Shown: positions 6,998-42,257 of the stretch, piece after piece | Layout: each line of letters starts with the position of its first letter | Position numbering within the stretch: position 1 is the stretch's first letter | Origin: Maylandia zebra | Lineage: Eukaryota; Chordata; Actinopteri; Cichliformes; Cichlidae | Direction of reading: 5' to 3' | Length of the DNA: 64,000 nucleotides | NCBI RefSeq assembly: GCF_041146795.1 | Contig: NC_135186.1 | Coordinates: 37,492,354-37,556,353 of the forward strand | The notes under the pieces: model-generated | Told to the model about the DNA's origin: nothing | The model's input: only the letters and a program-made list of their open reading frames with translations | Databases searched by the model: none | Program-made: the position numbers and the translations under genes

Positions 6998-7215
6998 ACC
7001 AAAATTAGGGGGAATTTACGACTGTGCGCTATGTGCTTCGAATATTGTGTGTGGTTTTTGTTTTATACAGTTGTCAGTCAGGCCTCTAACTATGAAACAA
7101 ATTACACTCCAAAAGACCCCGGGCTTCTGAAAAGATGACCCGGGCTTAAACCTAGCATTTATTTTACATTATACATTTACATTATTACATTATTATACAT
7201 TTATTTTTATTTCAG

Positions 7216-10200
7216 GCTTTATCAGAGCTCAAGTTCCTCCTCCTGTGACCCCCATATCCACAGGGAGAGTGGTCACCTCTAACGGCCTCAGTGTTCATCG
7301 CCTGAGCTGTGGTAAGATGGAAAATAGTGTCCAAGAATTCACTGCAGATCAAATTCAGACTCTCAGGCTAAATTCAACAAACTTAACAAGTATTGGATGA
7401 ACTGTTTATAGTTTACAGCCTTTTTATGCACAGCTGCTTATTTTCAGTTTAAATTGTATTTTCCTGATCAACAAACCAACAGTGCATTTATTCTTTAAAA
7501 AAGCTCTGAGGATGTTGGACTGTGTATAAAAGTTCAGAAACATTTGATGTAGATTAGAAACAAAAACACTGACTTAAAGTTTCCTCCTTGATCAGAGTTA
7601 ATGTAATATCCACTGTGGTGGTGTACAGAGGTACAATCCTCATTATTTATGGATCTGCAGCATCTGAGTCTGAAACTGAAGCCTGAAACCTGGATTATTG
7701 CATGTTGTGTTGAGTTGTTCCTTTTCTCTCATACTGTGTCTGTATAACAGTGGGTGGAATGATCATTGTGAGGTCAGCTGAGTACAGATGTGGAGGTGAA
7801 GTAACCTGCTCTCACGGTGACGCTGTGAACAACGTGAGGAACAGGTGAGCACTGTGGGATGGTAGAAGTGAGCCTTTGATTCAAAAGAAGAAACAAACTA
7901 AAACCTGTTGAACAGCTTTACTCAAACTAACAGGAAGTAAATGATTACCTGAAAGTAACTTGTTTCATATCTTTGAGCTGAAAACCAGCTGTTTCTGTCT
8001 CCCTGCAGCTGTGATGGAAAAACCGAGTGTGACATAAAGTCAAACATTACTTATGATCCTGGAGTCTGCAAATACCTGGAGACCACCTACGACTGCTTCC
8101 CACGTAACGACTCTGTTAAACCTGTGATTAGAAATGACTGATGAACCCAATCTGTACATGAATGATTACAGTTTCTATGGGATCTGTGTCTGTTTCAGGC
8201 CGCAATGTAACATGTGAAGCATCTCAGGCAAACCTTCAGTGTGGTGAGAACACAGCTTCTATGTCTTTGTACGTTTCCTGCAGTAAAAATATCACCATGG
8301 TTACAGTTTGACTCTATGAACTCTTCCTCAGATGAAGGACAGGTTATAGTCGTCTCCTGGGCGAATTATGGTCGCCGTGACACGACCACGTGCCCTGGCA
8401 AATATACTATCGAAAATCTCTACAATGTTAACTGCTCCTGGTCAGGAAGCACGAACTATGTAACTACCAGGTACAGATGCTGACTCTGATTCTTCAGCTC
8501 TCCATCTTCTCTCAGATGATGCAGTGAATTTTTGCTGATTCACCTTTGACCTGCGTTCACAGGTGCAATGGGACAAACAACTGTACTGTTGATGCAAATA
8601 TCTCAGAAGACCCGTGTTATGGCATTTATAAGTACCTGGAGGTGTTTTACACTTGTAAGGGTAAGTAACTCAAATAATAAACTTCTAAAGAAAATCTTTT
8701 AGGGTCGGTACATTCAGACTTGTTTTTGAAGTGAATGAAAATGAAAATTCTTCATCATTTTTAAAAGATGAACCTTTCTGTGCTGAAAAGAATCAACAGA
8801 AAAATCATCAGTCACGAAGATTTCGTCAGTTTGTTTTAGATCCTGAGTGAACACCTCGTGATTTTATCATCAAATAAATACAAATATTATAAAATAATGA
8901 TAAAATAAAAATAAAACCAGTCAAAGTGACATTTAAAATTAAAATCAGCTGACATTTAAAAACAGAATTCAAAAAGTGTTTACAAAGTCATTTGAATGAA
9001 CAAAAGGTACTTTTATTCGTACTTCGTACTTTCGTAATATTTCCTCTGAATGCGAGACGATTGGCAACTCTACTAACTAACCTTATGAACAAAATAAAGT
9101 TCACTATCAGTAACATCATAGCACCCACCCAGCTGTATAGAAACCCCGTCATGCTAGCTAGTACACAGTACGAGTTATTGTAACTGACTGTAAAAAGTCA
9201 GCACAGCTAAAATAAACTCCACCTAAACTTGGTTTATATCTGACCCAGATACACTGCAGGTCATAACTTCTTACCTGAAGTTCAGTTCACCTGACACTCA
9301 GACCGGCGGCCTCCTCGGGTCTCTCCTCCTCCTGCCTCCCCTTCCCTCATCCACCTGGTGGAAGCTCTGCCACAGCCACCACCAAACAACTGAGTTATTT
9401 TTACAAATCTGCCAATCCACCAGCTTTCATTGTTTATACTGTTACAACAAAAAAACAAACAAAAAAAACCACCCATCGGCCCATAAAAACGAAAAATCCC
9501 CATCGGGCATACCGGATGGCCAGTCCAGCTCTGATTGTAGGGTAGCAAACATCGTCGGAAAACACGTTTTCAACACTGCAGGTTACCTGGTGTAATGCTT
9601 TACTGAAACATGGTCTGACTCCTATCTAACTATATAAAGAGTAACTGAAGGTTAAGCCAGGCGCTCACACCTCCGCTCTGCTGCGTCTCAGCCACCATCT
9701 CTCTGGCAGAAAGGGCGCTAGAGCAGAGCAGGGGAGAGGCGAGCTGGAACAAACCATTTCTTTTGGGGGGGGGGATCTATACGTTTGTCTTTAGAATATT
9801 ACGTCTCAACCAAGTACTGTATGGTTTTTCTATTTTTAGTAGTGTGTCACACAAACAGCAAATATTGTCAAAAAAAGTAAGACATCTTTGGGGTGCTTTG
9901 ATTCCTTTGGGCTATATATGAGCTAAAAACGCCCGTGTTTAAAACTAAATATGTTCCCTAAAACGGTGACAGCGCTACAGACCCATGACAGCCTTACCCA
10001 GTCAGCCAGTAGCTATGACCAGCACTACTTGTGCAGTTAATAAGAGGACAGGTAATGTTTGTCGCATTGTTACGCTCATTTGTTTCAATTCGTCAGTTGC
10101 CACAAGACAACTGACCAACGTGTACGTAATAAGCTAATACTCCTGGGTGCTATAGAGTACAGTGTACGCTGTTCACCATACTTCATGGTTTTGCTGCATC

Positions 10201-13200
10201 AGTCTGCCTCTCTGAGTTAATTTGTAGTTTCTCCTACAGCTCTGGACCGCCCAGGTCTGATGCAAGCCAGATCCTTTTATTTAGTAAAAATGGGATTAAT
10301 AGTTAAACATTATTGTTGAGGGGCACAGACAGGACTCCGCACGCACACAAACATTACAAACAAAAGGGCACTTTGGGCACCCATCAGGAAAGGGGGGGTG
10401 CTCAAGCCCCTCCCGCCCCCCCTCTGCACGTGCCTGGTGAAAGGGGACAATCTGGGGATCCGTGGGTCCAAGGGGAAACTCACACGTCCATATAGTGGGG
10501 AAGTCACACAACTGTCACACAGGAGAGGAAAATTACTCACAGTCTGAAAAACAAGCACAAATTCACGGAGCTGAGAGAATCACTAACGTGTCTCGCACAA
10601 TCGTCCAGTGACCAGAAGCACAGCGTCCCGGCCTTAAATGGTGGGAAGATAATGGCAGCTTAATTGCGAACAGGTGTGTGGGCCAAGGGTGGGAGCCCAC
10701 AGTGAGCTCCGCCCAGGCAGAGCGGTGAGGAGAGAGTGAGAGAGAAACAATACACATGTAGCCTTGCGGGGCCGGCTGGGTAGACACGGGGACGTGACAT
10801 GTTCACTCCGTCAGCTGTTGAACACCTGCTGCTGATTTAAGAAACACGCCCATGTTAACTGGTGACAGTCACAGTTTAACGTTTTCAGCTGTGTGCGCCC
10901 TGTAAAGTAACACCATCAGGATGTTCTACATTTAATGACGCACATCGATGGATTGGTGCAGGCGTATCTCAATAAGTTCTGCTCAAATAACTGGATTATG
11001 GATTCCTCATAACCAGGTGTGTTATGAGGAATGTTGTCACAGTTTATTTATAATGTGTTGTTATAAGCTGATTAAAAAACAGAGCCATCCAGTTACTATG
11101 TTACAGCGCCACTGTCAGGGTTCCTGGGCCGCTGACCCAGCGTTTTCAGTTTGGACTTTTGTCAGTGTTTAGTTTTCATGTTGGTTTCCTGTTTTATTGT
11201 GTTAGCCTTTTGTCTGTGTGTACTTTGTTCATTTCTACTTCCCAGTTTCTCATTAGTTAGTTCAGCTGTGTTCTTACCGGTTTCTAATCATCCTCATCAT
11301 CCAGTCGGTTTCCCTGAGTTCCTGGTATTGTTCTCACCTATTCTGCGTGTGGGCTTCCGTGCTGGCTCTTTAACTGGCCAGCATGTCGTGGAGTGGGTGG
11401 GAGGTGTCGTCCAACATCGTCCTTCTCTTGGACAACATCCACGTCTCAGACACCACCTTAAGGGAGTCCGGCTCCATCCCCACAACATTACTGGCCTTGC
11501 AGATCAGTTTATTTAGTCTGTTAGCATCTGTGAACCTCAACCTGTTGTCCCAGCATGCAAGAGCATAGAGGACAGGACTGGCCACAACAGACTGATAGAA
11601 AATCCTGAGCACTGTCCAAAACACGCTAAAAGACGCAGAAAATACAGATATCTCTGGCCTTACTGTAGAGTACCCAGTCTAGTTTATTTAATGTGTACTG
11701 TTAAGGTTCAAATATTGAGGAAGGAGAGTACAAACCACCAGGTCCAGAAGATTTTGGTCAAACAATTGATTTTAATGAATACACGCGTGGGAAGACCAGT
11801 CTGTACACAGACAGGGATTGATCTCCGACTTAATCAAAGCATACACAGATTTTTATAGCATCAGGGTTTGAATTAATGACGCCCCTTCATACGTCACAGA
11901 CAGACACAGACATACGTCAAATCAAAACCACAATAACTTTTAACACGGTTTAAAAGAACATTATCTCTGTCTCGTCTGGAACACGATAACCTAATATAAT
12001 AATAATAACCTAACTGAAACTACATGTACTATGTTGAATAAATGTATTAATCAAGAACCTCTACTAAAAGCTTAGTAAAAGAACATAAAAGTATAAAAGA
12101 CAATTTGAATACCCTAGTTATTCACATAGCCTCGTCTAACCTGCTCCTCAGAATAACCTGCGCTTAGATTCTGCTTTCGGTTTCAGTTCTGCAAACGCTC
12201 TGCAAGCCTGCAGTTTCCTGTCACTCTGACTCTGTACAGGGTGCACTCAAAATCAACAGAATCAGCACATACACACTTAAGATTATAACAAGCATTCAAA
12301 AGCATTTAAGATTATAGATTCAACTCAACAATTCAAAGTGGTTATGGGTTTAAAGTGGCTCAGGTGCAATGAGAAGAAAGAGGGAGAGAGAGTGGTGTGG
12401 CTTTGGACTGTAGGCTGACTACAGTTAAGTCAGTCGGGGGGTGAGCGTTAGCTGCAGTGTCAAATCTGTAGAAGAACAAATTCAACCTGTTGGCCCTCAG
12501 CTCTGCTTTTGAATGGCGTGAGTCCAGTGACGCTTTTCAGGACTTTTCAAGCTCCTTAGACTACCGTGACCTGGGTGACTGAGAACCTACAAAGACATAT
12601 CTTCATGCCACTCCAGAGCTTTCTCATGTTGTTCTGCTGGAGTTCCCACTCCAGCTTTCTCCTGCAACTGTCCATAGCCTCTCTGATCGTGCCCTTCAAT
12701 AAAAACGAAACCCTTTCCACCTCCTCTCTGTGGCCCTCTTTTTATCGTTGAGGAGAGCTGTGATGTTCTTTCACCCACGGCTTGTTATCCGAATAACAAT
12801 GTATAGTCCGAGCTGAGATAATGGAGTCTGAGCAGATGGTTATGTAATCACTGATACACTCAGTGTCCTGTGGGGCTCACAACGTATCTGCCTGTTGCCT
12901 CATAACAAGTTCTCTCTCAGCTGGTAAAACAGACGACATACTGTGTGAAAGTTGGAAGTATAGCATTCAAAGTGATGTAGTGGAAGTCATCCAAGGTGGC
13001 TATGAAGGCATAGAGTGCTGAGTCTGTAACCAGGTATCGCAGAAGGAATAATGTCAAATGAACCTCATCAGCTTAAATTCAAATAGACTCAGTAGTGGAA
13101 CACGGCTAGGTATTTTCTTTGTCTTTTGAGGAATTATTAATCTGATTATCGACCTTCTACCTTTACAATTATTTTGCAGCTCCTTCCTGCCCTGCTGGTT

Positions 13201-14165
13201 GGACTTGGTTTGGAGGTCGCCGTTTCCTCTTTAAAAGCAGCATGAAGACCTGGACTGATGCTGAGGTACATCAGAAATAACAGCAGCTGTCGCTGCATCA
13301 CTGATGACATAAAGACTTTCTGTCTTTGACTGATTTTAAATGCATTCTCACACTTTTCATCTTCTGTGCACCTCATCTTCCTCCTCAGTGTTCCTGTCAG
13401 ACACTCGGTGGAAATCTGGCCTCATTCCACAGCACAGCTGAGTACACCTTCATCAGAAAGCTCATTTACACAGCAGCAGGGTCGTATCCAACAGCTTGGG
13501 TTGGAGGCAACGACAGAGAGACTGTAAGTGTTTCACAGATAAAGAGGATGAGCTGCAGCTGTTTCTGATATTTCATATGTTTCTCTTCATATTCATCAGT
13601 TTGATTCAAAGGTCAACATGTGACAGACTGATTAATCAGGACTTTGTTCCTGGAGACAGATGTTGCTGTTGACTTGACTTTTCTTTTCATTTTTTACCTG
13701 CACAAACAAAATGAACCTTCGTTGTGTTCGAGTGGTGTAAGAGGTCTCATGTCTGCACTCTCAGCATAGATGCATCAAAGTACATCAGAACAAACTGAAC
13801 TTTATTCTTCCAGGAAACTGTGTGGAAGTGGAGTGATGGTTCCCAGTTTGACTTCACAAACTGGGCCAAAGAACAACCAAACAACTCTGGAGGAGGAGAA
13901 GATTGTATGGAGATAAACTTTAATGGTACAAACTGAAAGTGGGCCTGTTGATGAAATGTGTTTGGTTTTTATATTGACTGAAGTCATGTGATCTTAGGTC
14001 TTTATAAGAACTGTGTTTGTTCTTTTTACATTAGAGAAGAAGAAAACATTTACTGCACAGACCTCTGATTTTATTTCTTTGTTTTGATTCTTTACAGGAC
14101 GAGATTATGTCAACGACTCAGGATGTAACTCACAGAGAGGGTTTGTTTGTGTCAGAGGTCCATAA
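7216..14165 (+). CDS. Gene A: chimeric lectin, SUEL-SUEL-C-type lectin domain (5' end missing)
   Basis: Ten exons with AG/GT borders and compatible phases give 321 codons without a stop: 7216-7311, 7751-7844, 8009-8103, 8199-8243, 8332-8470, 8563-8660 (two SUEL domains), 13180-13265, 13389-13523, 13814-13925, 14098-14165 (CTLD; stop 14163-14165). The last SUEL exon ends in phase 1 (YTCK+g) and the first CTLD exon opens in phase 1 ([13 protein letters not shown]), so the domains read through. SUEL2 keeps YGRRD and DPC. SUEL1 has YRCG instead of YGR, DPGVC instead of DPC, and VTS instead of the first VTC cysteine. The CTLD shows [29 protein letters not shown] (QPN at the usual EPN/QPD place), EDC and VND...FVC. 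RBLs and CTLDs bind sugars outside the cell (family knowledge). No signal-peptide exon was found upstream in 1-7200, so the start lies off-window or is lost. Two adjacent genes remain possible, but the CTLD part has no start or signal peptide of its own. Confidence 0.8.
11112..11365 (+). mobile_element. LTR-family fragment (TGTCAGGGTTCCTGGG...)
   Basis: It starts TGTCAGGGTTCCTGGGCC and resembles the left part of the 19173-19709 element. The right end is missing and it abuts the LINE piece at 11370. Confidence 0.45.
11370..11690 (-). mobile_element. LINE reverse transcriptase C-terminal fragment
   Basis: The minus strand codes about 84 residues ([43 protein letters not shown]). This is the typical C-terminal end of jockey/CR1-type LINE ORF2 in fishes. 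It is truncated at both ends; the antisense LTR at 11699 interrupts or bounds it. Confidence 0.75.
11699..12440 (-). mobile_element. Antisense copy of the 6397 LTR family (far end uncertain)
   Basis: Begins TGTTAAGGTTCAAATATTGA, the reverse complement of the end of the LTR at 6397-6903. Similarity runs to about 12230 with indels. The outer end and a target duplication could not be fixed by eye. Confidence 0.6.
12441..13080. repeat. Non-coding repeat debris with a foldback-family fragment
   Basis: 12518-12595 matches the multi-copy block AGCTCCTTAGACTAC...TGACTGAGAACC also present near 45700, 51180 and 58920. The flanking DNA looks like non-coding LINE remnant. No coding exon was recognised. 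Confidence 0.5.
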
Positions 14166-21181: not shown

Positions 21182-24100
21182 ATGCTCCGTGTAAGGCTCA
21201 GCTGCACACTGTGTGAGTACACGAATGATTTTCTATATTTATGTTTAATGACTGAATTCTAAAATGTTTGTTTCCGTCTGAATATTATTTTATATGTATG
21301 TGGGTTTTCTGTTGGATGAGTCCAGATGTATCACTTGTTGACAGCTCTGCGAGGCTGTAAGCAGCGATCTCTGAGCTGAATGTAAATGCTGAGCACATTT
21401 TGTGGTTAACATGAAAGGCGACAGACACTTGGATGAGGCTGTGATTTTATGACACATGTGACACTCGCTGCTAAAGGTGTGACTTAGATACCTCACAGAA
21501 AAGTATGTTCAAAGCTGGTAGTAGATAACAATGTGAGGGTGAAGCAACATTATTGTGAAAATAATTTTATTTCAGTTACAGACGCAGGAAAATAGGTAAA
21601 ACATCAAAGCCTTAATATTAATATACACCACGCATGTTTGAGAAGTTCTGCTTTTTCAAAAAGATGATCAAATCATTTTCGTTTAAATCTTTTCTCTTGC
21701 TCAATGAATAAAACACTGATGTTTGTTTTCAGTGCTGGCAGCGACCTGTTTGCTCAGCGGAGCAGGTAAACAGCATCTAGTGCAAGATCCAGTTTATCAT
21801 TACACAGCTCACCTCATGTCACATTTTCATATCTGTTCTTCAGATGCTTCCATGGAGAAAGCCGTCAGCTGTCACATGGGCGGTGTCCAGAGGCTGAGCT
21901 GTGGTACGATGCATGTTTACATCTGCACAACCAAAGCGACTCGGCGGGGATGTGAAAAATCGGCTTGTACATTTCACTCAGCCAATGAAACTCTTGGAAT
22001 TCATGAATTGAGAAAAAATATTTTGGTTTGATTTTTACATTTTTTCATCTGAAGGTTCATCGTCCTAAATTGGAGACATTTTTTAAACAAATACATAAAT
22101 TGGGCCTGTTCTACACTGGGGCAAGAGGGGGCAATGCCCCCTTAAACAAACTTCCTGCCCCCTTAAGTCAAACTTTTGGAAGTTGAGAAAAAAAAACAGA
22201 TTCTCCACAAACTGATTTTGGACAAGATTTACTGCAGTAGCTGAAAAGATCTGCTGGAAAATGTACAAATGAGATGATAGGGTTTAAGTCTTGTTTGCTT
22301 TCCCTCTGTGTTCTCTTTGTGTGCAGGCTCACACACTCACCCTCCCCCCAGCTAAACATCCAATCACTTTAAGTATGCAAATGATCCGGTGTCAGGTTTC
22401 TCAGCAGTGTTGCCAATTTAGCGACTTTGTTGCTATATTTAGCAAGCTGTCCGACGCCCTTAACTACTTTTTATCTAAAACAACTTCTAAAAGTAGCAAC
22501 TTCTCACTACTTTTAGGACAGCCAATAGTGATTTTTCTTACTGAGGAGTTGGCAACACTGTTTCTCAGTAGGCAGGACAGAGCAGCTAATCTGTGTGTGG
22601 TGTAACCAGAGGTGGGTAGTAACGAGTTACATTTACTCCGTTACATTTAATGAAAAAAATGTACTTTTAAAGTACCTTTTTACTTTTACTTGAGTACATT
22701 TGTGAAGAAAAACGGTACTTTTACTCCGCTACATTTGCAAAATTAGACTCGTTACTTTAAAAAAAATAATTCGTTTAACACATTAGATAACATGCCACCA
22801 GTGGAGTTTCCAGTGACTTTTTTACCAATCAGATATGGCCATGCAGTCACATGACCAGTTTGAAACTGACCCCCTTAGCGACTTTTTTCTAAAAAGCGAC
22901 TAGCGACAAATCTGGCACCTTTTTCTGGTATTATTGGAGACTTATTTATGAAATGAAAATGCATATCACTCTCAACAAGCAGCGGTGCTGCCGTGGGCAC
23001 CTCACCCGTGCCAAAGTGCTCACAGGCGGAGGATAGTCCTCCCCCGGCTGCTATAAGGGCAGGAGACGTTCCTACCTACCTATGCGTCCAAACACACACA
23101 CACACAAAGTAAATCCACCAGAGTGCCAATTTCGGGTCACTTTTGCCGGTCCAAGCCCGGGACCCACCTCTGGGTGTAACAACCCTTTTGGGTTATAGCA
23201 CCACTAGGGGGGGTTGCCCTACTATTGTAATAGCTGTGGGAGTCTCCTAGTGGGTGTGTGTTGTTAGCTCGTGTTCCATTCGAAAAGGAAAACCTTACCG
23301 TTGTGACGGCCTGGCGCCGGTGTTGTGCCAAAAAGTGATTGTCTGCCAAAAACTGATTTCCAGTGTTTCTGTGTATTTTTTATGTGTAATATCTTTACGT
23401 ATGTTCGTAAATAGACTTCGGTGAACAGGGGATACAAAGGGGTTACATAAAGAATTAAAACATTATCTGTTTTTTAAGTATCTTTACAACTTGTACTTAC
23501 ATTATAACCAATCCGGTCCTTTATCCCCACTTAAAATATTTTTACAGAACTATTGTAATATTTGCTGCCATTTCTGCTGTCCTGTTGGGCAACTTACTCT
23601 TACAAAATACATTTTTAATGTTAATGAGACTTTTTTTACTGCATAAATAAAGGTTATATAAAAGTCGCTGCCAAAAACTGATTGCGGCTTGTATCTTGCT
23701 ACACGAATGTTGTTTGTGGCTCAAGATGACTTTATGTCATCCATAAGGGATGCATTTGACATATGTTTAACATATTATAGCCCAACAAGTTACTTATAGC
23801 ACTTTAAATATGAGCAATCGCTTTTTGGCAAATACCGGAAATCAGTTTTTGGCAGACAATCACTTTTTGGCACAACACCGGCGTTACCAATCTGTGCGCA
23901 TGTATGCATGGACGAGTACAGCCGTGGAGACCTGGCTCAGAAGGTGTAATGTTGCTGACAGTGAATAAAGGTCTGTTATTGGATTTAACCGACTGGCTTC
24001 GGGTTTTTAACCCCCACACCACACGCTCGCTCGACCTGCTAGCCGCTCCTTCCTCGCCATACTGCTGTTACAGTGGGTTACAGTGACTGTAACTGACAGT

Positions 24101-27100
24101 GTATTTGAACTCTTTCATGCACAGTGGTCACTACAGCTATTCATAGGTTGTTTTTAGGGGTGGGTTTTTATAATCGATTTATCGATTAAAATCGATTCTG
24201 GCTTGGATAATGTAAAATCGATTCATTAAAATCCTGAATCGATTTTTTTAATATAAATTTATTTTGCCCGAAATGCCAGAATCTCAGGCGAGAGATCACA
24301 AAATTTCAACAACCACCAAACAGCTAAGACAGTAAATGAGAGCAGGTACATGGCTCCTGCACAAAGACGTAAACACACAGCGCGGACCCGCGGATCAGAA
24401 TCACTGAGATGTCGCCTTTCTCAGCTGACGGTCGGGGCTGAAAGCCGACAGCTCGCTGATTCTGATCCGCGGGTCCGCGCTGGGTGTTTACGCCCTTTTT
24501 GCGCTGATCATATGGCTGTTAGTTTTATCTCTCTCCAAACAATATTGACCGAACCAGCAGCAAAAGAAGATCCAAACTATGCTTCACATAAACATCGTCA
24601 TGAATTCCCTCTGACTTTTGCTGACTTTTCAGGATAAAAATCACACTTCATGCACAGCTCTCTCTCTCTCTCTCTCTCTGTACTTCAAGAACAGTTTCCC
24701 TTTCTTCATTATTCGCTTGCTTGTTACGCACAAGTCTACCGTTGTTTACAGGCTGTCGGCCGACGTTTTTTTTTTCCCCTTTTACTTACTTCCGAAAAGT
24801 AAACCTAATTTCTGCCGTTCAATATTGAACAAATTTAAACTTTTTAAAACCGCTGTAACTTCAGAGGTGATGTTCATGTGTTGATTAATGGTTTTCTTTC
24901 GTTTTTGATGTACTGCAGATTATTTTTATAAAATCCCAGGCCAGGAAAATCAACTTCATGTTTTTCTGTGTTTTATCTTCAGCTACTTTGACACAAAGGC
25001 CTCTACTGTGATGCTCACACCTTTGATAAAGTCTTGCGTGTGTCAGCTTCCTTTTTATAGATACAAAAATATGTAAATGTACTGATCTGAATTATAATAT
25101 TTCTGACTGTCAAAATTTCCCAGATTCAAATCGAATCGAATCGAATCGAATTAAATCGAATCGTGGATCGAATCGATTCGGGACCTTGTGAATTGGAATT
25201 GAATCGATTCTAGAAATCAGTGACGATACCCAGCCCTAGTTGTTTTCTTGTATTTGTGTCAGTGTTGATGGTATACTTGCACATAAACCACTACATTGGT
25301 GTCACTCCACACCCTGCCACCCAAAGGTCGTGTAATGTCACTATAGATGTATGACATGTTTCATTGTAATTATTGTTATTTAATCCTGTCATCCATGAAT
25401 TATGAGTATAAGTGTTTTTATTCATCTTTTACTGCCCAAAGACGAATAAAAATACTTAAGAAAGAAACTCCGGATTGAGGTAGTCATAATTCATGCAGGT
25501 TTAATGTTCGTCACTGTATTTGTTAGAAACAGTTTTGTAATTTTCCTTTAATTTAATTTATTCATTCGTTTATATATGATCATGTATAAACTACATCATC
25601 AACTCAGTCAATAAATATACTTAGATGTATCTCATAAATGAAATAACAGTGTAGTAATTATTTTAGTAAACCTTTTACAGTTAATGAAAATGTAGTGCAA
25701 AATAAAATACCTACGATTATTATTGTTATTATTGTTATTCAAGTTCTAACCTCTCAGCTGCTTGCAGTGATGTGTTACTGTAGGGTCTTTAACTTACAAA
25801 ATAAAGCGCCTTGAGACAACGATGCAGAAATAAAAATCGCAGTGAACTCTGATTTTTACGCTGCTTTTAAATGAAATGCTCTCGTTTCTGATCCACTCGA
25901 TGTGACAGAAAATGGAGTGATCAGTGTGGTAGCAGCTCTGTACGGACGTGCAGACAGAGAGACCTGCAGTGAGGGCAGACCTCAACAACAGCTTAACAAC
26001 ACTGAGTGCTCTCAGCAGGGAACCGTGGACGTCCTCAGGAGGAGGTACAAGAGAAAGGATCCTAAACTTCTGTTGTGAATGTGGCAGCTTACAGTCAGCT
26101 ACATGTGAGCGTCCATGAGGTTGAGCTAATTATAGCTAGCTATAATTAGCTAGCTATAATTATTCTCTATGGGCTAACCGAGCCTTTGCTGTTCATCTTT
26201 CAATTACAGCCGCTACATGAGCAAAGAAAGTAAAGAAATATGTGTAAATATGTTTTGGAAAAAGCAGCACAGTTAAACAATAACCAACATCCAGCACTGC
26301 TTTTTTATGTATGTGTTTCCTTCAGGTGTGATGGGAAGAAAGTGTGTGAACTGAGCGTGACTGACGTCGAAAGTCCTGACCCTTGTGTCGACACCTACAA
26401 ATATCTGGAGACCAGCTACACCTGCTTACCTGCAAGTCAGTATCACATGACCATGAAACTATGAAGGAAGCAGAGCTCAGAAAGAAGGTCAGAGAGTTTG
26501 TGACTGATTTATGTGAGCATGCTAACGCTAAGTCAAGTCAGTCAACACATTTAAACACAGCAGATGTTCAACAAATCATCAAAACCAAGTAATACGTTGA
26601 TAATAATGACTTTTTCATTATAATTTAGTAAAACATAAAATCTGCTTTGATGACATTATGTGAAAGCTCATGAAAACATTTTGAGCTGGGATGTGAACAC
26701 TGTTCCTGAGGTAGATGATGTCATCTGAGGAGGGAGCCAGTGAGTGAGAACGCACCAATCAGATGAATCATGAGAAGACCCTGATTAACAAACCCAAGTG
26801 AGCAGCAGGAGACAGAGCATGTGGAACATCTGCTAGAGAACATGAAGTTCATGTAGGCGGGTATATGTGAGCAACAATATTTCTGATCCGGTACTTCACA
26901 AATATGATTACACTTCTGTGCACGCAGACGTTCAGGATCCTTTCATTCATGCAGCAAACATTTAGGTTATTAACAGAAAGAAAGAGTTCATCTTTCTGAA
27001 GAAAAGTGGGTAACAACTGCTTTGATCTGTGAGTCAGACTGAAGAGAGGTACAAACATGACACCAAGATATTTTCCCCCTGAGGGTTAAGAAGGGACGGT

Positions 27101-28684
27101 GGAAAGCAAGGAATCTCTTCTGGGACAGTGGCGCGGCTGCCCCTCTGTTGGTCTTCCATGGTCTCTTGTGTTCTGGGGGCCTCTGGATGTCTGGAGTTTT
27201 GATCTCCTCCATACCCGCTTCACACCCTGGAGGACGGGGCTGTGGCCCCCCCACACTCCCTAGCAGATCATTACATGGAGAAACCTTTGGAATGCAAGCA
27301 TGCTGATCCACACAGGTATGCACACATGGGTATTCACAGACGCGGACTAAAGCTTTCTTGGCTGCTGCCTCAAAGCACACTGTGCGCTGTCTATCTTGCG
27401 TGCTGCACAATATCGTTTATTATTTAGTAAATATTGATATCTATGACTAGCTAGTTTATTGTGATGGTGCTTTGTTTTCTCTATTATTATGTTGCTCTTT
27501 GTTGTTTGCTGTCTCCTCTGTTTGTTTTTTTTGTTTGTTTTTTTTTTCTCCATACAGGTGACCCAGGAGTTCTTTTTTTTTTTTTCTCTCTCTCTCTTCC
27601 CCCCCCCTCTCACCGTCTCTTCTCCCCTTTGGTTTTCTTTCTTTCTCTCCCCCTCTTTCTCTCATTCATTCCCCCTGTCCTATTTATAAAAAAAAAAAAA
27701 AAATGACAAAGGATGAACTGAAGCTCTGCCATCACGTAATGTCGCATACTGCTGTTTCTGATGTCATTTAAAAAAAAAAAAAAAAAAAAAAAAAGGAAAG
27801 CAAGGAATCTCTAAACTTCCAGCTTCATTTACATTGAGGCTGCCAAACAGCAGCTTCAACATGTCGCTGAGAGCCAATGTTCTTCAATGCTTTCATATCT
27901 AATCTGACCTGCTTCCACAGGTCACCTGGTCACATGCGAGCACTCGTTTGCACACCTGCACTGTGGTAAGAGTCATTATCTCTGTTGTGTCTCAGCTCTG
28001 ATCATTTTCAGGTGAAGATTTTCTACTTTTATTGCAGTTCTTTTTGTTTTTATTTTATTTACATTTTAATTTCTTATTAGTGTTTATTAAGTCAATCCAT
28101 CTGTTACTGTCAATGTGTTATTTTGTTATGTTCATGAATTCGACCCGTGTTAAATGATTTATATGACTTGAATCAAATTTAAATTTGATTAAACTGAAAA
28201 AACGTTGCTGGGTTGTTTTCTGCTCGTCTTCTCTCGTCAGATGAAGGGCAGGCTATCCTCGTGTACGGGGCTCACTATGGACGCCACGATCAGACCACAT
28301 GCTCCTACAGAATTCTGGCCTCTGAGGTCCAAAATGTTTACTGCTCCCGTCCCACCAGCAAAGTCGCTGAGAGGTACCGTTTTCCTCCTGTTACTGCTTT
28401 AAACTGTGGCTGCAGGTATTACTTTCATATTTCTCAGTGCACATCAATGCCTGCGCTCACTCACATTGCTCTGCATCTCCAGCTGCGACGGGAAGAGCAG
28501 CTGCACCATCAGAGCGAGTAACTCGGTGTTTGGAGACCCCTGTGTTGGCACATACAAATACCTCGAGGTGGCTTACATCTGCCAGTGTAAGCAGCCTAAA
28601 TGATCACGTTGATGTTCTCACACTACAAAGACTGACATGATCTGACGTGGAGATGTTGTCTGTTCTTTTGCAGATCTAACATGA
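21182..28684 (+). CDS. Gene B: two-domain rhamnose-binding lectin, complete
   Basis: Nine exons with AG/GT borders and consistent phases total 663 nt, giving 220 residues: 21182-21212, 21733-21765, 21844-21903, 25909-26044, 26326-26435, 27921-27965, 28241-28373, 28483-28586, 28674-28684 (stop TGA). Exons 1-2 code a signal peptide ([16 protein letters not shown]...). Each SUEL domain has three exons (VTC...LxCG; YGR; CDGK...DPC...KYLE). SUEL1 has [14 protein letters not shown] and [20 protein letters not shown]2 has [17 protein letters not shown] and [16 protein letters not shown], followed by the short tail QYLT. Both domains keep the YGR and DPC motifs that form the L-rhamnose/D-galactose site in known RBLs, so a secreted sugar-binding lectin is the likely product (family knowledge). 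Intron 3 (4 kb) holds several transposons. Gene C is a tandem paralog 1 kb downstream. Confidence 0.92.
22605..22760. repeat. Repeat block AGAGGTGGGTAGTAACGAGTTAC
   Basis: A run of ACTTTTAC/TACTTTAA-rich DNA starting CAGAGGTGGGTAGTAACG, of the common fish hAT-like non-autonomous type. Ends not fixed. The neighbouring 22405-22560 and 22860-22915 share a TTAGCGACTTT motif. Confidence 0.45.
23174..24073 (+). mobile_element. Possible LTR, interrupted by a MITE
   Basis: TGTAACAACCC at the left and CTGTTACA at the right could be LTR ends, with an AATAAA near 23963. The flanks CTGGG/GTGGG match only imperfectly as a duplication. The MITE at 23315-23883 sits inside. Confidence 0.35.
23315..23883. 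mobile_element. MITE with ~46-bp terminal inverted repeats
   Basis: The left end CGCCGGTGTTGTGCCAAAAA continues as AGTGATTGTCTGCCAAAAAC. Its almost perfect reverse complement forms the right end (...GGCAGACAATCACTTTTTGG, CACAACACCGGCG). Length 569 bp. No transposase. No clear target duplication, so the superfamily is open. Confidence 0.8.
24155..25238. mobile_element. Non-autonomous hAT-type element, TSD GTTGTTTT
   Basis: 1084 bp starting TAGGGGTGGGT and ending ATACCCAGCCCTA, with duplication GTTGTTTT (24147-24154, 25239-25246). The subterminal DNA carries ATCGATT and TCGAA arrays. An inner foldback of ~36-bp arms (24367-24403 against 24457-24493) holds the GCGCGGACCCGCGGATCAG motif. A truncated minus-strand relative lies at 60547. 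Confidence 0.85.
26124..26160. repeat. TAGCTA palindrome cluster
   Basis: CTAATTATAGCTAGCTATAATTAG followed by another AGCTATAATTA: overlapping perfect palindromes in gene B intron 4. Confidence 0.6.
27119..27794 (+). mobile_element. 5'-truncated LINE-type insertion with poly(A) and 18-bp TSD
   Basis: The insertion is flanked by a perfect 18-bp direct repeat GGAAAGCAAGGAATCTCT (27101-27118, 27795-27812) and ends in a run of A at 27768-27794. This is the footprint of target-primed reverse transcription in plus orientation. The inner poly-A block near 27690 and pyrimidine-rich stretch 27575-27680 are shared with the minus copy at 1-493. It lies in intron 5 of gene B. Confidence 0.9.
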
Positions 28685-29709: not shown

Positions 29710-32700
29710 ATGCAGTGCTCCGGACTCAGCAGCACACTGTGTGAGTACAGGAAAGGCTTTGCACACTAAAAGTTGCTCCTTTAATGTGTCATTTACATGA
29801 CTTTGTTGTCTTTTACCAGTAAGTTGTGTATCCAGTTTTTCTCTGTTTGTTATTCATTTTCATTTCATGTGTTAAAGTCCATGTGGAACACTGTTAACTT
29901 ACAGTAACACAGAAGACAAACGAGTAAATCAGCTGTAGGTCGCACGCCGGCTAACACCCAGGTTTCTCTTTTTATGTTTCAGTGCTCGCAGCAACGTGTG
30001 TACTCATGACTTCAGGTAATCACTGAATGTTTGATACGTTTTATGCTAACGTCCTTTTAACCTCTTACTCTAGCACGTAGATGAGTTAGTGAAACCCGAT
30101 CGGCTCTGATTGTGTCTGTGATACGACATCCGTCCTCTTTACTGCACGAGCCTGTAACCATCGCCTTCCTTACGTCGGCCTATCCAGTTTCTTCTTTTCT
30201 CTCAGAATAAACAATATTTTTCTGGCTCTAACACGCCTTCATACTCAAAGAGATAGCCTAGATTTGCATAGCAGTTTTGCTTCATGCCTGTACACTATAG
30301 TGCTATTTGATTTTACTACACCACTCACTACAAGAGCCTCCGATAAGTTTTCAGTCCCACCACCACTAAGGAAAAATCCCTCAGGTAAACTCTGGAAACT
30401 CGGACTCATTGAAGCACTGACTGAAAGCAGTTCAGTAACAGAGAACAGTGTCCTGTGAAACTGATGTTAAACTAGTGGTGGGAACACTTTTAGATAATTG
30501 GAATTATGGGGACTGGCCTTCGTTGTCCCTACCAGAACTTACGGCTGATTCGCTTCCATCATGCTCAGCCAGTCAGGTTACATATCGGACCCCAGGAACG
30601 ACACTGTTCAACATTCTTACATTATCTGAATAGCATCACTTCATTATTGTGCATGAGTCACCCAGCAGGAGGCTTCAGTGACTGAAAACCAGTCAGACCT
30701 GTCGCGGCAGAGAGACCGGTGTGTTTGCGGTGTGGACCCAAAAGCAGACACGACAGAAAAACAAAGCAAAGTGAAACAAGGGTGGGACTAACCTAAGCTG
30801 GGAAAAACTAAACTATGACAACAACGATACAAAACCAGAACATAACGCTGAACGGGGACATGCAAAACGCACCCATGAAATAAACCAAACATGAACCTGA
30901 GCAGTTGAAGAAAAACTCTATGATGCGACGTGACACAAGGTAAACAGATGATCCGACACTGAACCGAAGAAGACCGAAGGGCAATGAAGGAAGTGGAAAC
31001 ACCTGGAGAGACACAGCTGACACAAATGAACATGACGCCACAGGGGAAGTAAAACTGAACATGGAAACATCGAACCCTTCAAAGTAAAACAGGAAGCATA
31101 ATGGAACGTAGACATGACAACACAGACTTGACAACGTGTGCACACAGACATGAGACACATGCCAGACTGGGGAGAGACAGAACGCAAGGACAGACACGTG
31201 GGAACAGAGAGGGGAGACGAAAGCACGGGCATAGCTACAACACAAAATAACACAAAATTGCTGGGTGACAGACCATCAGCGACTGATGTGGAGGAAATCC
31301 TTCCTCAGCCGGTTCAGAGGAGTGTTACAAAATACAAATACATATAATGAAGGTGACATTAAGTCGACTGGGATTATTTCCCACTTGTCCTGTGTTTTCT
31401 ATATTTCAAATCCATTCATGTTTGTTTATGATGACCCTGCTGTAGCATAATAAATTTATCCAAGACTCACTAATTATGGACTTTTTACATTTTTCATTTC
31501 AGGCTTTTTGGCCCCAGGTGGACCTATGGGCCCAGGTGGACCTATGGCCCCAGGTGGACCTCTGGGCCCAGGTGGACCTCTGGGCCAGAGTGGACCTATG
31601 GCCCCAGGTGGACCTACGGGCCCAGGTGGACCTATGGGCCCAGGTGGACCTATGGCCCCAGGTGGACCTCTGGGCCCAGGTGGACCTCTGGGCCAGAGTG
31701 GACCTATGGGCCCATTCCCGCCGACCTTCATGTCCACAGCGAGGGTGATCACCTGTGACAGCCTTGACAATGTGCAACGCCTGAGCTGTGGTAACATAAA
31801 AATGTTTTTTATAGCTCCTAGCTCTCACTCAAAAGTGAAGTTCTGATGTAATGTGCATTCTTTCTAATGTCCTGCAGGGGGCGACTCCTCAGGTTGTAAA
31901 TAGAAGTCTGACTCTGTGTTTATGAGAAACTGAGCTCAGTCTCACCCGAGGAGCAAAAAAACCTGTTAAGGTTTAGGTTCTTTTTGTGCTTTATTCAGTG
32001 AAACTACAGTTTATGCTTGTGACTGATGTGACCTTTCAGACTTCCTGTAACACCACAGAACTACAGGAGGACATTTTCTGATTATTGAAAACATAAAAAG
32101 CCTCAGTTTGTTTCTCTTGTGCTGCACACCTTATGCATTCCTTGTGATTCCCTCCGTTTGAACGTCATCGTTCTCTGTGTAACAGATAATGGAGTGATCA
32201 TCGTGCAGGCAGCTATGTACGGGCGGACAGATGCACAAATCTGCAGTGATGGCATTCCTGCAGATCAGCTTGCAAATACACAGTGTTTCCAGATAGACAC
32301 TCTAAAAGACGTCAAGAGCAGGTAAACAAGTCTGAGGAATCATGGATGAATCGATCACTTTAACTCACCTGAAAAGACGAGAGCTCCTCTTTGTCTCCCT
32401 GCAGGTGTGATGGCAAGAAGGTGTGTGAAATAAGTACAAACTCCTTCCGTACTTCTGATCCGTGCTCCGGCATTTACAAATACTTGGACACCACCTACAC
32501 CTGCTTCCCAGCAAGTACATTACAACTGTGATTAGAAACTAATATTCAGTGTATTCAAATTTGTGAATGTGCATGTCTCTAATGTGCTTTATTTCTCTGT
32601 CAGTCCACAGTGTAACTTGTGACGATTCGCTGGCAAACCTTCAGTGCGGTGAGAGCACAGTTCCTCCTTCTTTGTGAGTCTTTGGATTCATGCGGTAAAA

Positions 32701-33256
32701 ATACAAATGAGGTTAACGTTTGCTCTTCTTCAGGTGAAGGACAGGTTTTACTCATCCACGGAGCTGATTACGGGCGCCGTGACTCGACCACATGCTCTTT
32801 GAATCTTCCAGCCTCTCAGCTCCAAAATGTCCAATGCTCAAAGCCCATAAGCAATTTAGCTGACAGGTAAAGATGCAGACTCTCTTCCTTCAGCCTTTTG
32901 TCTTCTCACACAACATATTTCAACTCACCTTTACCTGAATCTGCAGCTGTAACGGGAAAAGCAACTGTACTGTCAAAGTGAGCAGCTCTGTGTTTGGAGA
33001 CCCGTGTTTTGGCACCTACAAGTACCTGGAGATGGCTTATAGCTGTCACTGTAAGTGCCTCAGACTTCTCTTTAATTAGAGCATTTATAACAACAAAAAA
33101 TTTAGCTCATGTAACAGTTAGAGAGAAATGTGAATCTGCCCTTACACACTGTGCTTTTAGGTGGTTCAGCACTGATCCTGTTTCCTAAGACGTTGGGGTT
33201 CAGTAATGAAACTCTCTGACATAAATTTTCTTTCAGTTGGTTTTCCAGATCACTGA
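29710..33256 (+). CDS. Gene C: rhamnose-binding lectin with a collagen-like N-terminal tract
   Basis: Nine exons in consistent phase total 900 nt, giving 299 residues: 29710-29740, 29983-30015, 31503-31790, 32186-32321, 32405-32514, 32604-32648, 32734-32866, 32947-33050, 33237-33256 (stop TGA). Exons 1-2 code a signal peptide ([21 protein letters not shown]). Exon 3 is 288 nt against 60 in gene B, because it codes 22 Gly-Pro-rich triplets ([12 protein letters not shown] type) before [13 protein letters not shown]...RLSCG. Two full SUEL domains follow: [11 protein letters not shown] and [27 protein letters not shown] and [16 protein letters not shown]. Both keep YGR and DPC. The tail is HFGFPDH. 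The layout mimics collectins and ficolins (collagen stalk plus lectin head), so oligomerisation is an inference, not shown. Intron 2 holds an LTR-family remnant. No stop or frameshift was seen. Confidence 0.9.
30690..31155 (-). mobile_element. LTR-family remnant
   Basis: GACCCAAAAGCAGACACGACAG...AAACAAGG resembles the left part of the 14467-15207 element. The open frames on the minus strand here are C- and V-rich shadows. Ends not resolved. Confidence 0.45.
31520..31717 (+). repeat. Collagen-like tandem repeat in gene C exon 3
   Basis: Eleven 18-bp units (GGACCT-x-x-x-GGCCCAGGT type) code 22 triplets. 19 begin with Gly and three read APG. A higher-order 108-bp period is visible: the [24 protein letters not shown] block occurs twice. 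Pro is always at X, never at Y, and GPG puts Gly at Y. The same exon in gene A has only RAQVPPPV at this place, which points to local repeat expansion. Confidence 0.9.
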
Positions 33257-36167: not shown

Positions 36168-37458
36168 TCAAAAGAAATGATTGTGACATATGGTGTCTCT
36201 GACTGCGCTTCCATCTTGTATGTCCGTGGGAGGGTCAGGATGTTCATGGTTTGGATCACTGCTGATGTTTGGTTCAGAAGGACAGTGTTCTCCTCTAATT
36301 GTGGCAATGTTGTGAAGAATCACACATGCCACAATAATGTCACATGCCCTTTCTGGGGTGACCCTGAGTCTTTGCAGGCACTGGAACCGGGCCTTAAGCA
36401 TTCCGATAGTCATTTCAATTCTGGCTCTTGTCCTGCAATTAGCCAGATTATATCGCTGCTGTGGGCCCGGTTCAGGGTCAGAGTAAGGGGTAAGCAAATA
36501 GGGTAAACATGGATACCCCCTATCACCAAGCAAGTAGCCAGTGAACTCTCCTAAGACAGAAGGGTACACTTCAGTTCAAATGTCCCTGAAGCAATTGGTC
36601 TTTATATATTTTAAAGTATTCTCAACTCACCATGTCCAAATTTTGTGCTCAGTGTACATTCACGGAATATTTGTGAGTCATGGACAGAGCCTGGCCACTT
36701 GGCTTCCACATTTGTGATAATGTTGGCAGCATCACATATGATCTTCACAGTGCAGAGAACACAAATTAGCATCCATTACTATGATGAAATAATTTGTTAG
36801 TTTGAAATGCTACAGGGAACTATGTACCTGTACATTAATGCTGTGGAAAGACTTCCTGTTCACATAGTCTCCTTCATTTACTGAAGGAGCAATGATTGGA
36901 ATGTGAGTGCCATCTGTACAGCCAATCACGCCTGGGAACCGTGAAAATAAATGTAAAATTTAAGTAGTAGTTCAAGTAGCACCACATCATAAATTAAGTT
37001 TCGTTCATCCTGATACCTGCAATTTTGTGGCATCCCTCTTTGATAAATCTTGTGGGTCTGTGACCGGGGAACACCACAAACGAGTACAGGAGACGTTTCA
37101 GTGCAACTGTAACATTCCTGACTGCCCGACAGACGGTAGCCTTGGAAACGTGCTCAGCGTCACCAATATTATACAGAAAGCTCCCGTTTGCAAAAAACCG
37201 AAGTGCAATACAAATAATATGTACAGAAGTGAGAGAATGTCCGCGATGTGTCACATGCGTAATATATGGCCTGAGGATGTTATCCAAATAACTTATAGAT
37301 TGTGCTGAGAAACGGTAACGTTCACACAGGAAATCATCAGGAAATGATAAAATGTCCAAACGCGCTCTAATCACTCTCTCCCGGCGGAGAGCTCTGCGGA
37401 GAATTTGGGCTTCACGATCTACTGGCTCTTCAAGGAAGGGACACGCCATGTCTGACAC
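36168..37458 (-). CDS. Harbinger (HARBI1-like) DDE transposase, apparently intact
   Basis: Four exons join without stop or frameshift: 37458-37017, 36931-36828, 36742-36631, 36568-36168. They total 1059 nt, or 352 residues, close to the ~350 usual for HARBI1-like proteins. All introns have GT/AG ends and matching phases. The catalytic DDE residues are visible: Asp in GCTDGTHI (codon 36912-36914), Asp in GSVHDSQIF (36677-36679) and Glu in [10 protein letters not shown] (36414-36416). The N-terminal helical part ([29 protein letters not shown]) is also typical. In the family the enzyme cuts at the TIRs and leaves a 3-bp duplication. The partner Myb gene in the same element is broken, so self-mobility is doubtful. 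Confidence 0.85.
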
Positions 37459-41481: not shown

Positions 41482-41593
41482 AGAACAGGTAGTTTAAGAT
41501 CTTCAATAACAAATGACTGTTTGAATAAAAACAGCAGCAGCTCTGAAACACTTTAATAAAGCTGAAAACGAGCTGCTTTCTGTGTCCCTGCAG

Positions 41594-42257
41594 CTGTGAT
41601 GGAAGAAAAGTGTGTGACATAAATATGAACATCATCAGTGCTTCTGATCCCGGCGTCTGCACCTACCTGGACATCACCTACACCTGCGTCCCAGAGAGTC
41701 TGTTACATGTGTGATTATCAGCTAAAAATCAGTCACATCTGTACATGAATCATTACAGTTTCTAATGTGATGCGTTTCTTTGTCAGTCCACAATGTAACA
41801 TGTGAAGGATCTCAGGCGAACCTTCAGTGTGGTCAGATTTATTTTTCTCATTTATTGTAACTTTAGTGGATTCATTTGATAGAACTACAAACATGGTTAC
41901 AGTTCATGAACTCTTCCTCAGGTGAAGGACAGGTTATAGTCGTCTCCTGGGTGAATTATGGTCGCCGTGACAACACCACATGCCCTGATGGAAATCCTGA
42001 TCACGTCAAAAATGTTCTCTGTTCGAGTCCCAATAGTACAGAATATGTAACTAACAGGTAGAGATGCTGACTCTCTTTCCATCTTCTCTCAGATGACACG
42101 GCGTACTTCAGTCCTCTGCTGACTCACCTTTGACCTGCATTCACAGGTGTAACAGGCAGAACAACTGTACTGTTGGAGCATCAAACACAGTGTTTGGAGA
42201 CCCCTGTGGCGGCACCTACAAGTGTAAAACACCTCCAGGTGTTTTACACTTGTCAGG
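41594..42257 (+). pseudogene. Gene D: broken A-type rhamnose-binding lectin copy
   Basis: Four SUEL exons are seen: 41594-41697 (CDGRKVCDI...DPGVCTYLDITYTC), 41787-41831 ([15 protein letters not shown]), 41922-42057 ([21 protein letters not shown]) and 42147-42257 (CNRQNNCTVGASNTVFGDPC...). The first three are open. The DPGVC motif and VIVVSWxNYGRRD make it the closest relative of genes A and E. The final exon should read [13 protein letters not shown], but a 7-bp net change that creates a 36-bp palindrome (42218-42253) shifts the frame after GGTYK. No signal peptide, first two SUEL1 exons or CTLD were found next to it. Intron DNA after 42258 still matches gene A to about 42530. Confidence 0.85.
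42218..42253. repeat. Perfect palindrome that destroys gene D's last exon
   Basis: Arms ACAAGTGTAAAACACCT and AGGTGTTTTACACTTGT are exact reverse complements around CC. The right arm is ancestral exon sequence (EVFYTC in gene A). The left arm is an inverted copy of it. Confidence 0.95.

Follow-up and report, generated by a model that had tools for sequence, protein, structure and literature searches.

The gene described here lies at 29710-33256 on the plus strand of the window, a stretch of 64,000 nucleotides of Maylandia zebra DNA, and is predicted to code for a rhamnose-binding lectin (RBL). Its nine exons join to a coding sequence of 900 nt and a product of 299 aa, in which a signal-peptide-like start is followed by a Gly-Pro tract and two SUEL domains, SUEL1 and SUEL2. 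The frame is open with its sole stop at the terminus, the intron phases are consistent and all eight introns are of the GT-AG type, which bears out the complete nine-exon gene with good splice sites proposed in a preliminary description of this DNA. The gene comprises the following features:

29710..29740, plus strand, exon 1: beginning of the signal-peptide-like N-terminus, with an in-frame ATG and a GT donor
29983..30015, plus strand, exon 2 (33 nt): remainder of the signal-peptide-like part
31503..31790, plus strand, exon 3 (288 nt; both ends in phase 1): Gly-Pro tract, then the start of SUEL1 including its first two Cys
31509..31714, plus strand, 18-bp coding minisatellite (TRF, period 18, 11.4 copies, score 317)
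31718..31790, plus strand, 3' portion of exon 3: linker end PPTFMSTAR, then the start of SUEL1
32186..32321, plus strand, exon 4: SUEL1 with the YGR motif
32405..32514, plus strand, exon 5: SUEL1 with the DPC...KYL motif
32604..32648, plus strand, exon 6: start of SUEL2
32734..32866, plus strand, exon 7: SUEL2 with the YGR motif
32947..33050, plus strand, exon 8: SUEL2 with the DPC...KYL motif
33237..33256, plus strand, exon 9: C-terminus FGFPDH and stop

Classification and features

Pfam SUEL_Lectin (PF02140) matches two stretches of the protein (E 3.3e-36; score 123.9 bits, cut-off 31.4) and is the only Pfam family above its cut-off. RBL domains are defined by eight Cys (four disulphides) together with YGR and DPC-KYL motifs (PMC3269628, in excerpt). 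Both SUEL domains of the product contain eight Cys and, as read from the translation, the YGR (including YGRTD) and DPC-KYL motifs. Judged by its sequence the gene is a two-domain (type III) RBL, otherwise plain, with a product that is predicted to be secreted. The closest solved relative is CSL2 (9vwi, E 1.1e-70, residues 102-292), followed by CSL3 (2zx0, E 2.3e-45). A structure search also delivered CSL3 2zx0 with an E of 1.7e-16, yet with TM values of 0.36/0.47 and an rmsd of 12.5 across both domains; single latrophilin lectin domains reached a TM of up to 0.87 by target length (8djg_F). The structure search supports the SUEL fold only and is uninformative on the N-terminal tail.

Further RBL exon-like pieces occur at 7182-8659 (plus), 41592-42222 (plus), 54300-53632 (minus) and 59819-59715 (minus), so that the window contains an RBL cluster. 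A putative upstream RBL paralogue at 21733-28585 (plus) consists of an exon-2-like piece at 21733-21765, which has 33 nt as in exon 2 of the RBL gene, an exon-3-like piece at 21844-21903 and, after a gap of about 4 kb, SUEL exon pieces at 25908-28585. C-type-lectin-like exons at 13146-14162 (plus) and 46386-45226 (minus) resemble the end of protein P0066 from Oreochromis aureus, in which SUEL and C-type lectin domains are joined (PF02140 plus PF00059). Open reading frames at 36168-37458 (minus) are presumably those of a Harbinger-type transposase, which they look like.

Repeat array in exon 3

The Gly-Pro tract comprises 22 in-frame triplets at 31520-31717. The 22 Gly-Pro-rich triplets reported earlier between signal peptide and SUEL1 are thus in frame and form a real tandem array. 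Minisatellites have units of about 10-60 bp, a range that includes the exon 3 array with its 11.4 copies of 18 bp in a coding exon. When as many as three mismatches are tolerated, the unit pattern occurs 11 times in the 64-kb window, always within exon 3, whereas 100 shuffled sequences gave 0.13 matches on average; together with the TRF score of 317 these counts rule out a chance origin of the array. The units are arranged in the order A-B-C-D-B-E-A-B-C-D-F, the 72-bp block A-B-C-D occurring twice at an offset of 108 bp, and GGA CCT is common to all 11 of them. Codon differences between units are all nonsynonymous and none is synonymous. The absence of synonymous differences fits recent copying, since copying yields identical codons; that all differences are nonsynonymous is a hint, given by few events and no test, of no constraint on the tract.

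The first position of the triplets is occupied by Gly in 19 and by Ala in three of the 22. Pro is found at position X in 20 triplets and at Y in none (0/22), whereas Gly occupies Y in eight; Y sites able to carry hydroxyproline (Hyp) number 0/22. Two triplets read Gly-Gln-Ser. The tract of 66 residues contains 27 Gly and 20 Pro, no charged residue and no Cys, and its unbroken Gly-X-Y runs are 3, 5, 5 and 6 triplets long, 6 being the maximum. That Pro never occupies Y had been stated as a caveat before and agrees with this census; the Ala at the head of three triplets, the eight Gly at Y and the pair of Gly-Gln-Ser triplets are additions to it.

Related proteins

Protein P0004 (UniRef A0A3P9D..., 257 aa) is a SUEL protein of M. 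zebra, the organism name being that given by UniRef. It shares the signal peptide, the linker ends and the SUEL part with the window protein: the first 22 and the last 204 residues are identical, with 100% identity across residues 96-299. P0004 is a record of the same gene. Its tract is shorter, with four units (A-B-D-F) versus 11 in the window, which leaves 257 versus 299 aa (42 residues fewer) and Gly-X-Y runs of three and four triplets. An intronic repeat mistaken for an exon is unlikely, because P0004 has the same exon product.

A search with residues 4-122 of the RBL protein retrieved 11 proteins, namely P0004 (E 4.6e-35), two paralogues and eight Gly-Pro-rich proteins (P0122-P0129). These eight have 15-18 Gly or Pro among the 24 residues of their best stretch, none has both YGR and DPC, and they were excluded from the SUEL count, as was the exon-3 piece P0001. 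The pool counted comprises 153 SUEL proteins (P0002-P0121 and P0130-P0162) that are similar to the lectin and have 0.55-1.75 times its length, drawn from the best 120 of 192 and the best 120 of 228 matches. With a cut-off of our own choice (Gly plus Pro at least half of the residues over 24 positions), a Gly-Pro tract was found in one of these 153 listed proteins, P0004; the runner-up among them is P0023 from Menidia (0.46), with a Pro-rich stretch. The preliminary description knew of no described RBL of this kind, and the tract is indeed rare among the 153 proteins listed, the single carrier being the same-gene record. From Met to the first SUEL Cys the window protein has 105 residues, compared with a median of 30 and a maximum of 76 in the 120 of the 153 listed proteins in which the distance could be placed by a regular expression, which mis-set it for at least one protein (P0037). 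Two SUEL proteins, P0036 and P0047, bear the name Oreochromis niloticus in one source and, in a truncated label, Mustela putorius in a second one, probably owing to mislabelling or contamination in the public record.

At the position of the tract, the short linker GFPRTGPLAHFP is found in P0045 (Pundamilia) and in P0049 (M. zebra), which are the nearest paralogues from cichlids, and GFATAEPSIPGSGTP in P0048 (Archocentrus). Exon 3 of the upstream paralogue in the window (21844-21903) has 60 nt versus 288 nt, and here the seven residues DASMEKA precede the Val-Ser-Cys of the SUEL domain.

Among the listed matches from the open-licence literature, titles and abstract openings name no collagen-bearing RBL, and collagen is not named in the list of RBL superfamily domains in the excerpt of PMC3269628. 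Within the open-licence literature surveyed, as far as titles, abstract openings and excerpts extend, the Gly-Pro tail is an RBL variant for which no description was found.

Interpretation of the Gly-Pro tail

We interpret the gene as a SUEL-SUEL RBL with an 18-bp minisatellite that is probably young and has likely expanded through tandem duplication among African cichlids. On this reading, whose probability is about 0.68, the tail is predicted to be disordered and variable in length and not to form a triple helix. That the growth took place in the African cichlid lineage is suggested by the protein records, the window being the one DNA compared. High Pro and Gly contents maintain disorder in elastin-like chains (PMC5703643, in excerpt), and the composition of the tract appears to lie within the range of such chains. 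In the AlphaFold2 model of P0004 residues 1-49, which include the signal peptide, have a pLDDT below 50, while 125 residues have values of at least 90 and 69 have values of 70-90; the low values do not separate disorder from collagen, as a helix of three chains is beyond the reach of a single-chain AlphaFold2 model.

A short Gly-Pro seed in the linker would have given rise to the array by slippage or unequal exchange, and the length of the tail would drift through the gain and loss of units. The tail may act as a flexible tether of elastin-like composition with its length under weak constraint; it would lengthen the N-terminus, with a slight effect on spacing, mucus retention or protease exposure, or with none. 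The SUEL domains would most likely mediate both sugar binding and assembly, as they do in lectins of the CSL type. The salmon relatives CSL1, CSL2 and CSL3 have 4, 18 and 2 subunits, respectively, in noncovalent association, and a stalk goes unmentioned in the excerpt of PMC3269628.

That the tract is instead a true collagen-like stalk, trimerizing the lectin in the style of collectins and ficolins, is improbable. Such a stalk would agree with the 22 triplets, most of them with Gly first and Pro at X, and with the N-terminal position of the tract, which is that of the collectins. Matches of the N-terminal part to 1wck, an entry for BclA (E 4.5e-5, residues 22-93), and to 9d2f (E 4.2e-4, residues 25-96) point the same way, but are probably compositional. 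A precedent for a Gly-X-Y domain on a different lectin fold is given by nematogalectin (PMC3269628, in excerpt), and helices of the bacterial protein Scl2 form without Hyp (PMC7824840, in excerpt).

Against these points, Pfam Collagen (PF01391) does not match the full RBL protein at E values up to 1, and the search was equally negative for exon 3, for the tract and for P0004 with values as high as 10 admitted. The search is able to detect such repeats, since an antisense frame of 107 aa (31474-31797, minus strand) matches Pfam Collagen with an E of 1.6e-9. Unbroken Gly-X-Y with Pro or Hyp at Y or with charge pairs, taken here as the mark of collagen, is absent from the tract; it is interrupted by Ala at three Gly sites, has no Pro and frequent Gly at Y, carries neither charge nor Cys and has no run above six triplets, and P0004 has runs of just three and four. 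Host-guest peptides have a Tm of 47.3 C for (Gly-Pro-Hyp)8, and replacement of Hyp at Y lowers it by 0-21 C, additively (PMC7824840, in excerpt). Hyp-free Scl2 constructs have Tm values of 23.5-35.6 C, for which Pro at X is credited together with charge (same excerpt); the tract shares the Pro at X with Scl2, but is without charge. The collectin-like collagen architecture favored in the preliminary description, disfavored by the triplet census and the missing Pfam Collagen match, is set back as the leading interpretation, and the tract as a collectin analogue is weakly supported.

The length of the tail, in place of its fold, is the subject of another explanation, which is compatible with a disordered tail: splicing inside the exon 3 array at CAG|GT units would produce in-frame tails of several lengths, P0004 being one such product or reflecting an intron set by a gene builder. 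We consider this explanation improbable. It draws on the following stretch:

31554..31679, plus strand, 126-nt stretch whose excision yields the N-terminus of P0004, the sole GT...AG among 21 equivalent placements

Given this placement, an intron in the array could be the work of a gene builder or of a spliced-read aligner, and a genuine internal splice is conceivable. Nine AG|GT sites are spaced by multiples of 18 bp, and the internal donors agree with the consensus in six of nine positions, equal to three of the eight real donors (the others have one five and four seven). Internal acceptors compare less well, since eight of the nine have 6-7 pyrimidines in 16 positions (the ninth has 11) versus 10-15 at the eight real acceptors. 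Whole units can be deleted from the array in 168 distinct ways, 37 of which allow a GT...AG placement, so that the fit of the 126-nt gap is neither automatic, which speaks for internal splicing, nor rare, which speaks against it. The copy numbers of 11 and four compare the window DNA with one protein record, whose sequence would be the same with a GT-AG gap. Splicing or annotation could account for the shortness of this M. zebra record, but we take a shorter allele to be the likelier origin of the 126-nt difference.

Two further explanations are very improbable. According to the first, the array is a piece of a collagen gene captured in reverse, with the antisense frame as the original code, in accordance with the Pfam Collagen match of that frame, its Gly in first position in 21 of 23 triplets and its nine Pro at Y; this capture is set back by the sharing of codons wherever units share residues, as expected of a copied 18-mer and not of a collagen gene stretch, and a local Gly-Pro seed is available in the paralogue linker. 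GGN-CCN reads Gly-Pro on either strand, and the antisense collagen frame is probably the mirror of this near-palindromic repeat and no gene. According to the second, exon 3 is skipped in the mature transcript or the RBL gene is a decaying copy, as could be read from P0042 (Oreochromis niloticus) and P0046 (Haplochromis burtoni), which are without exon 3 and start in intron 3 sequence (60% identity to the window intron over 25 aa at 31912-31986 and 96% over the stretch from 32098); against it stand the open frame of nine exons with GT-AG introns, eight Cys per SUEL domain, the presence of the exon 1-3 product in P0004 and the loss of the first two Cys of SUEL1 that omission of exon 3 would entail. 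Since P0042 and P0046 begin in intron 3 residues, they are uninformative on the tract in their species.

The gene may be an example of a repeat within a lectin gene giving rise to a new stretch of protein, in a fast-radiating group of fishes. If the repeat number varies among cichlids, these would provide a natural series on the effect, if any, that the length of the tail has on a lectin; if the tail trimerizes, it would show a collagen-type stalk arising from nothing. A wider scenario, to which we give little credence, is that a vertebrate RBL gained a collagen-like stalk de novo in the African cichlid radiation, starting with a Gly-Pro seed that its linker supplied, with the length of the stalk set via repeat number or in-frame splicing at CAG|GT, so that one gene would tune the reach or valency of a mucosal lectin among close species.

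Comparison with known systems

The two-SUEL RBLs of fishes (CSL2, CSL3 and SML; type III) resemble the window protein in the signal-peptide-like start, the tandem SUEL domains and the YGR and DPC motifs (PMC3269628, in excerpt). The window protein differs from them by the 66-residue Gly-Pro tract before SUEL1.

Collectins and ficolins consist of a collagen stalk and a CTLD or fibrinogen head. The likeness lies in a secreted lectin (here predicted) with an N-terminal Gly-X-Y-like region. The window protein differs from both groups by its SUEL head and by a tract that is broken by Ala, free of charge and Cys and without Pro at Y; no C-type lectin or fibrinogen head was found by Pfam, SUEL_Lectin alone being above the cut-off.

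Cnidarian nematogalectins likewise combine a Gly-X-Y domain with a lectin domain of another fold, so that a Gly-X-Y region outside the collectin and ficolin folds is not new in itself (PMC3269628, in excerpt). Their lectin domain has the galectin fold, their Gly-X-Y domain can, according to the same excerpt, adopt a triple helix, and the likeness is not one of homology.
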